From assembly GCA_017427685.1 (NCBI GenBank), contig JAFRSH010000014.1, positions 62,001 to 126,000 on the forward strand: 64,000 bases of DNA, written 5' to 3'. This DNA is from Lachnospiraceae bacterium. Lineage in GTDB: Bacteria > Bacillota > Clostridia > Lachnospirales > Lachnospiraceae. The notes under the pieces are model-generated. The model had not been told where the DNA came from, made no database searches, and saw only the letters and a program-made list of their open reading frames with translations. The position numbers were made by a program, and so were the translations under genes. Below are positions 38,304-52,573 of the stretch, in pieces. Numbering within the stretch: position 1 is the stretch's first letter; the number at the start of each line of letters is the position of its first letter.

Positions 38304-38311
38304 GTATGAAA

Positions 38312-38545
38312 ATTGGTAGAGGCGCATCGATTAAAAGTAAGCTGCCTGATGTTGCAGGACAGGTGATGACAGCTGAAAGGATGAGATGCCGAAATTGTGT
38401 TTCCGCCTGCCGGGTGCACAGTTGGTTGTGAGGTTAAGAGCCGCATGACTGTCATCAAACCGGGAACCGGACTCTTGAGGACGGTTTCGGGTGAGTCGGG
38501 GATTCGTTCTTCGATGATGGAGCGCTACTTTAAATCCGTAACACC
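38312..38545 (+). promoter_or_regulatory. Lysine riboswitch
   Basis: The order of conserved blocks matches the lysine (L-box) aptamer: GGTAGAGGCGC with AAGTA in the 5' strand, GAAAGGATGAGATGCCGAA, a long CGCCTGCCGGG arm, and closing GGAGCGCTAC complementary to the start. It sits between a strong promoter and a terminator just before dapA. High lysine should favour the terminator and lower dapA-dapB expression. Confidence 0.88.
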
Positions 38546-51403: not shown

Positions 51404-52339
51404 ATGAATTATTATCTTCGCAAAACCATAATATTCGCCGTGACATTGTTCTGTGTTGCCGCCATTAACTTCCTGCTTTTTACGGTTATCCCCGGCAACG
51501 CGGCTCTGTCGCGCCTCGGAACGGAGGCTACACCCGAGAAGATCGAACAGCTTTCCAAGAGTTATGGCCTTGATAAGAGTATCCCCGAGCGTTTTGTTTC
51601 GTGGCTTGGCGGCGCTGTGACAGGCGATTTCGGCATGTCGAGCGTTTACCCTACACGAACTGTTTCCGAACTTATTGGCAAGCGTCTGCCGGTCACGGCA
51701 GGCCTTGCCTTTATTTCTTTACTGCTGATAATCATCATCAGCATTCCGATCGGCCTTGTGGGTTCGAAGAAACCCGGCGGGATCATTGACAGGATAACCG
51801 ATATTTCGGCGCTTGCATTCATGTCGATCCCCTCGTTCATCCTCGGTATCGTTATCACGGTCGTGTTCGGAGTCGTACTGAGGTGGTTTGTTCCCGGCAG
51901 TTACACGGCTCCTTCGGAGAGCTTCTTCGGATATGTGGGATGCCTTATCTTCCCGGCTCTCAGTATCGCGATCCCAAAAACCGCAATGACAGTCAGATTC
52001 CTCAAGGCTTCGGTAAGGCGAGAGCTCTCCGAGGACTATGTCCGTACGGCACGTGCGAAGGGCAACACCCGCGACGAGGTATTGTCGCACCACGTGTTAA
52101 AGAACTCGCTACTGCCCGTTATAACGTTCATAGGGCTGATCGTGGCGGAGGTAATGGCGGGCAGCATCATTACGGAGAAGGTGTTCGACCTTGACGGGAT
52201 CGGGATGCTGCTCATATCGTCCATTTCGAAGCGAGATATGAATGTTGTGCAGGCCGTCGTGATGTATATAGCGGCGACAGTAGTAACGGTGAATTTTATC
52301 GTCGATATGATCTATCGAAAAGTGGATCCGAGGACCTAA
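51404..52339 (+). CDS. ABC transporter permease (DppB/OppB-like)
   Basis: The 311-residue protein has six hydrophobic helices, and the EAA loop lies in EDYVRTARAKGNTRDEVL, a DppB signature. The N-terminal FFTVIPGN-like region and the central SIPIGLVG helix fit the family. It follows the substrate-binding protein and pairs with the fused permease/ATPase downstream. Confidence 0.92.
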   Translation: MNYYLRKTIIFAVTLFCVAAINFLLFTVIPGNAALSRLGTEATPEKIEQLSKSYGLDKSIPERFVSWLGGAVTGDFGMSSVYPTRTVSELIGKRLPVTAGLAFISLLLIIIISIPIGLVGSKKPGGIIDRITDISALAFMSIPSFILGIVITVVFGVVLRWFVPGSYTAPSESFFGYVGCLIFPALSIAIPKTAMTVRFLKASVRRELSEDYVRTARAKGNTRDEVLSHHVLKNSLLPVITFIGLIVAEVMAGSIITEKVFDLDGIGMLLISSISKRDMNVVQAVVMYIAATVVTVNFIVDMIYRKVDPRT

Positions 52340-52350
52340 AGATTCTAAAT

Positions 52351-52526
52351 CCCACGGCAGACAGATATATTGTTTGAAAACACGGTTGCCTACCCTTCCT
52401 ACACTGCGTCCCATTTGCGCGTCCTCCGGTCGCTAGCGAACATTGGCTCCCTACGGACACGCACAGGACTTGTGTAGGTCGGTCGGCGCCCTATCGTTTT
52501 CAAACAGTATATCTGTCACCGTGGGG
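52351..52526. repeat. 176-bp nested inverted-repeat (foldback) element
   Basis: Outer arms 52351-52381 and 52496-52526 are complementary over about 30 positions with one bulge and two to three mismatches. Inside, CCTACAC (52398-52404) pairs with GTGTAGG (52472-52478), GCGCGTCC (52417-52424) with GGACACGC (52455-52462), and CGCTAGCG (52431-52438) is a small palindrome. It has no ORF and lies between two genes of one operon. MITE-like, or a structured RNA; no family recognised. Confidence 0.7.
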
Positions 52527-52573
52527 GATGGGGATTCCTAGGAGTGAGAGACTAAGAAGTAAAAGAGGGAAAA

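Follow-up and report, generated by a model that had tools for sequence, protein, structure and literature searches.

The question raised by this locus is whether a long foldback inside a transporter operon is a mobile element or a structured RNA that acts on the genes around it. The foldback lies at 52351-52526 of the window, the whole 64,000-nt stretch of Lachnospiraceae DNA that was analysed. A first-pass annotation had placed an inverted repeat there, and the fold prediction confirms it (z = -8.4, 22-nt arm pair). Positions 52351-52525 form one long, nearly continuous hairpin whose stem runs from about 52351 to 52525, so that the branched fold originally described is replaced by a single unbranched hairpin with internal loops. 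The minimum free energy (MFE) of 52340-52540 is -96.5 kcal/mol, compared with -57.9 +/- 4.6 kcal/mol for dinucleotide shuffles, and none of the 200 shuffles is as stable. The 22-nt arms (52360-52381 / 52496-52517) are 95% complementary, and no further match to the arm with three or fewer mismatches occurs within the window (0 expected).

The hairpin occupies a 234-nt gap in a peptide-type ABC operon with the gene order SBP_bac_5, BPD_transp_1 permease, and fused permease with two ABC_tran domains (Table 1). These Pfam domains bear out the placement between two ABC transporter genes of one operon. Six-frame ORFs overlapping the hairpin are short and none is coding-like, in agreement with the initial view that the element has no ORF. 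Rfam 15 has no family for the hairpin or its core at gathering or relaxed thresholds, and hits at E values of about 0.03-5 were dismissed as lying outside the core or being implausible. A lysine riboswitch is present elsewhere in the window (38309-38535, + strand; RF00168, 97 bits). An integron attC site was also rejected, since the RYYYAAC / GTTRRRY boxes do not match the ends, which are TGAAAAC/GTTTTCA here and CAATC/GATTG in genome G223.

Table 1. Parts of the hairpin and the genes on either side, in window coordinates (CM, covariance model)
Feature	Position	Strand	Evidence
Conserved core (AAAACACGG...CCCTATCGTTTT, 124 bp)	52377..52500	+	Genome copies 87-75% identical; CM R1 125 bits; covariation
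5' outer arm (CCCACGGCAGACAGATATATTGTTTG), specific to window copy	52351..52376	+	Pairs with 52501-52525
3' outer arm (CAAACAGTATATCTGTCACCGTGGG), complement of 5' arm	52501..52525	+	Arm pairing and arm scores
Possible outermost shell, 5' side (GATTCTAAAT)	52341..52350	+	MFE structure; pairs with about 52526-52536 via bulge
Possible outermost shell, 3' side	52526..52536	+	MFE structure
Upstream gene, ABC peptide/oligopeptide permease (BPD_transp_1)	51404..52339	+	Pfam PF00528, 9e-33
Downstream gene, fused permease and two ABC ATPase domains, 800 aa	52574..54976	+	Pfam PF00528 and PF00005 (two stretches)

The inner part of the hairpin alone repeats in the window's genome (query positions 46-173, which correspond to the core). 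The arms and inner segments had been taken for one element; the core is indeed dispersed, but the outer arms belong to this copy only. The core consists of a basal stem (AAAAC/GTTTT), a conserved asymmetric internal loop (AC / CTAT), a long interrupted stem and an apex (CGCTAGCGAACATTGGC). We refer to hairpins with this core as family A.

Sequence search and a covariance model together find seven core copies in the window's genome. Covariance searches also detect the core in seven of 23 genus-mates (G002, G009, G011, G012, G015, G018 and G021); every genome compared within the genus is a draft, and several are named as MAGs. The first model, built from eight copies, extends to other Lachnospiraceae genera with 13 matches in G188, 10 in G223, and others in G095, G100 and G205. 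A second model (R2) adds matches in G544 and G569 as well as further ones in G205, a genome with nine copies. R2 is positive in four of 392 genomes of the order, and it has no match outside Lachnospiraceae among them. At least eight Lachnospiraceae genomes beyond the genus carry the core, and the copy-richest, G223, has at least 20 copies. When all GTDB r220 contigs are scanned for the core pattern, matches come from Lachnospiraceae metagenome-assembled genomes only; one of these, UBA4292 (L080), appears in no other search. Searches of phage and plasmid collections found nothing real. Lachnospiraceae is so far the sole family with this hairpin. The IMG/VR scan places the core on one contig (L081), a putative mobile contig on which the copy at 694-815 adjoins a run of three serine-recombinase genes. 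Copies can also lie close together: two stand face to face 100 bp apart with different arms in G000:C30 (L013, 3389-3739), and four are arranged in tandem in one orientation with a spacing of about 215 bp in G544:C31 (L225, 4782-5555).

The shape of the core is strongly conserved. Its length is nearly constant within the genus (122-125 bp), and 90.5% of stem cells pair over 45 distinct copies. Both sides are altered by compensatory change in 27 of 31 pairs, and the covariation score (0.534) is far above those of shuffled controls (0.170) and slid structures (0.05-0.10), which indicates that the shape of the core is under selection. Covariation at one operon position had been suggested as the mark of an RNA. 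Strong covariation is found, but it runs across dispersed copies. The basal stem varies compensatorily across genera (AAAAC/GTTTT, CAATC/GATTG, GGAAC/GTTCC), and the adjacent internal loop (ACG / CTAT) is nearly invariant. These complementary ends are common to the copies (AAAAC/GTTTT, or CAATC/GATTG in G223), whereas the longer arms are not. Variants in G223 keep 33-34 nt at each end and differ in their middles, and each sits in its own stem; this is true even of the smallest, at about 47 bp. Longer variants in G223, C5b and G009f contain extra hairpins only.

This conservation could reflect a cis-acting structured RNA, either terminator-associated or an mRNA-processing motif, in which the outer stem is free to vary, the inner loops are selected, and dispersal is secondary. 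The covariation and the invariant internal-loop motifs are compatible with such a function, as are the 3'-UTR positions of copies and the upper stems, where G.U is slightly commoner than A.C in a count dominated by a few weak columns. Overall, however, no strand bias is seen (38 G.T versus 57 A.C cells, again dominated by a few weak columns). The core is present patchily (7/23 genus-mates; 4/392 genomes of the order with R2), orthologous sites are empty, orientation to the genes goes either way, minimal versions shrink to 47 bp, and no Rfam family matches. We therefore regard an RNA function of this kind as improbable. The more specific suggestion that the element regulates the downstream DppCDF gene as a structured RNA fares no better, because four congeners have no element at this operon position and orientation again goes either way. 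The proposal of a non-autonomous mobile element is instead supported by the dispersed copies in several genomes, the unoccupied sites of relatives, and the variants with common ends and different middles.

The arms outside the core, typically 15-30 bp, are copy-specific. For 29 independent copies, the 5' arm was scored against its own 3' arm and those of all other copies, skipping the 6 nt beside the core. Own pairs average 16.3, and the window copy scores 13.5, compared with 5.5 +/- 1.3 for cross pairs (maximum 12.5). The own pair exceeds every cross pair in 26 of the 29 copies. With few exceptions, therefore, arms are complementary within a copy and unrelated between copies. Arms that are partly common to several copies occur in G188, G205, G095 and some G223 copies, and these are recently duplicated composites. 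The outermost arms of G009d (L037; GACACGGGGACGGTTCTTTTGTC / GACAGAAGAACCGTCCCCGTGTC) resemble a widespread REP-type repeat, and the element is nested within them.

Comparison of occupied and empty sites suggests where such arms come from. In the clearest pair, G018 has a bare hairpin, CGCCCGATAATG-CA-GCATTACCGGGC, at the site of copy C5b in the window's genome. The occupied site reads CGCACGATAATG, then the element (TATAGTATCCCC-core-AGGGATACTGTA), then GCATTACCGTGCG, so that a half-stem lies on either side of the element; this stem ranks in the top 0.5% of windows at that locus. Family B, a neighbouring hairpin family unrelated to family A, has its own core (TAAACCTGAA...TTCAGGTTTA) and its own variable arms. 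Its empty site in G012c reads GCGGGGGC / ACCCCGC, and the occupied site in G015b carries 211 bp in that loop. A family-B hairpin is also found some 300 nt to the 3' side of the core of family A at L038, L036, L031 and L032 (C26, C48, G015b and G011b). A further case is G188 L082, which is without a second, reversed family-A element that sister copies have inside a short palindrome. The junctions of the C5b/G018 and G015b/G012c pairs, few as these sites are, have no target duplication, and the flanks are inverted rather than direct, contrary to the short flanking duplications envisaged for a MITE. The bare hairpins probably represent the ancestral state, although one or more of these pairs could be losses by deletion instead of insertions.

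The stems that hold copies are often terminators. Most copies in G223 lie about 40-100 nt past a gene stop in stems such as AAAACAGGATCCATC...GATGGATCCTGTTTTTTT, and the 3' flank contains a T run of at least TTTT in 16 of 20 copies, compared with 20% of control windows. By the definition of a GC-rich stem with a T tract behind a gene, 16 of the 20 occupy the apex of a terminator-like stem. Copies may point the same way as the gene served by the terminator or the opposite way. In G296, a congener of G223, serA, buk and a third gene are followed at the corresponding position by terminators without an insert; their stem sequences differ from those of G223, and the comparison consequently shows the position of the target but not its identity. 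Host stems appear to be pre-existing hairpins and very often intrinsic terminators behind genes. The arms of the window copy lack a T tract and do not qualify as a terminator by this definition. Another repeated hairpin (GTGCCACGACAAGGATGTCGTGGCAGCGAACC...) occurs in the 3' flank near family-A copies at the G223 loci L098 and L102.

Several sites have a more complicated history. No palindrome or hairpin is found at the window site in four congeners (G012, G002, G015 and G018), which implies that the window copy arrived in its own lineage; their intergenic regions have diverged too far for the form of the target to be read. At the C48 site, a 540-bp composite of A and B hairpins is missing as a block from G012, outer arms included, and no palindrome is left, which means that simple insertion into a loop does not account for all events. 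The sites of G009a, G009d and G012b differ by several shells, and the empty site of G009d has no hairpin. The left arm of G012b belongs to a local tandem repeat, and 8 nt beside the core of G009a are already present in the empty site of G021. At two loci (C26 compared with G012c/G015b, and C48 compared with G011a), a block of about 300-530 bp with these hairpins is turned one way relative to the flanking genes in one genome and the other way in another, which may reflect either an inversion or insertion in either direction.

Such sites leave some room for a different origin of the arms, in which the core inserts anywhere and the arms are made afterwards by inverted copying of one flank, perhaps through template switching when the hairpin is replicated. 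This would account for congeners without a hairpin at the window site, for the C48 and G009d empty sites, and for the repeat and the 8 nt just described in G012b and G009a. It does not readily explain the hairpins without an insert in the C5b/G018 and family B G015b/G012c pairs, nor the close resemblance of G223 arms, which carry A and T tracts and stand where genes end, to genuine terminators, and we consider it unlikely.

We favor the explanation, with a probability of about 0.64, that the window foldback belongs to a family of small mobile DNA hairpins, non-autonomous ones, that target the apices of other hairpins by structure and not by sequence. The element would comprise the core and a short inner arm, with its shape held by compensatory changes. 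It would insert into the apical loop of a pre-existing hairpin, often an intrinsic terminator behind a gene. The host stem would then become the variable outer arm and could still form, with the outcome of a hairpin within a hairpin, and composites of several shells might also move as one block. In the window copy, the outer arms would correspond to the hairpin that existed before insertion, and the 5' arm is likely to combine this target with the inner arm of the element itself. Movement may involve extruded or single-stranded DNA at the tip of the hairpin, and loops of this kind would naturally suit an enzyme whose substrate is single-stranded DNA. A candidate enzyme acting in trans could recognize the basal internal loop, and the conserved base as a whole (basal stem and internal loop) is presumably the feature read by the mobilizing machinery.

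Two familiar kinds of mobilizing enzyme were sought in genomes that carry the element. A Y1_Tnp (Y1/RAYT transposase) gene was not detected in G223, G188 or G009, and an RVT_1 reverse transcriptase was not detected in G223, G188, G012, G015 or G205. Draft assemblies may miss genes, and G188 is 94% complete; G223 is rated 100% complete. Because neither gene is detected in the two richest genomes, neither appears to be needed there now, and both were set aside as the mobilizer. The window's own genome has one Y1_Tnp gene. This gene and the REP-like outer shell of G009d could point to a REPIN or MITE of the usual kind, mobilized by a Y1/RAYT or other known transposase that the genome still encodes, and REPINs are likewise hairpins with compensatory changes that are often clustered (PMC3116915). 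We find this improbable, given the copy-rich genomes without Y1_Tnp, the lack of target duplication at the sites seen, and the variable arms, which are not a REPIN trait.

A wider form of the apex-targeting explanation is tentative, and we hold it with less than even confidence: a transposition system may read a DNA or RNA hairpin tip of any sequence through an enzyme that is neither Y1/HUH nor a reverse transcriptase, enter terminator loops without destroying them, and build Russian-doll hairpins by repeated rounds. Small palindromic repeats are common in bacteria and their choice of sites is mostly unexplained. If apex targeting is real, it would explain how such elements spread harmlessly in compact genomes, since the stem of the terminator is retained, how nested palindromes of great length originate, and why flanks are complementary within a copy yet unrelated between copies. 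A transposition enzyme that reads structure would likewise be implied. The window copy itself is most simply read as a passenger because it is recent and absent from relatives, although so stable a hairpin within an operon might alter how the mRNA is processed or how strongly one gene is expressed relative to the other.

A search of open-access papers returned no account of the family-A hairpin or of apical-loop insertion into terminators, which is weak evidence that the hairpin is novel. Among the structure-guided systems compared, none was found that enters unrelated terminator stems at their apex. With group IIC introns and the target hairpins of DGRs, structure directs insertion to intrinsic terminators or to hairpins (PMC3240598). 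They act beside the stem (downstream of it for IIC introns) and use a reverse transcriptase, whereas the loop is the site for family A and neither G188 nor G223 has RVT_1. IS1397, IS621 and ISKpn1 target palindromic units, the REP palindromes (PMC1525189), but these are autonomous insertion sequences with sequence-specific targets, and the targets of family A share structure rather than sequence. Dispersed mobile hairpins are also represented by the repetitive hairpin-forming and double-hairpin elements of mitochondria; these are organellar, and the parts of their description considered here do not include nested apical insertion into terminators (PMC2800124).

Other similarities are to small bacterial repeats. 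REP/REPIN elements are small extragenic palindromes whose hairpin fold is maintained by compensatory changes, and the hairpin is the form in which they are believed to move (PMC3116915). Family A shares the small size and the compensatory changes, but its copy-rich genomes lack RAYT/Y1 and its outer arms are copy-specific and apparently derived from the target. The Correia/NEMIS, ERIC, RUP, RPE and YPAL repeats are intergenic, non-autonomous long stem-loops of about 100-200 bp (PMC2229807). Unlike these MITE-like repeats, family A shows no fixed terminal repeat with a TA target duplication, and it sits in the apices of other hairpins. The family-A hairpin belongs with the known small palindromic mobile repeats; it is dispersed and conserved in structure, and its proposed target is unusual.
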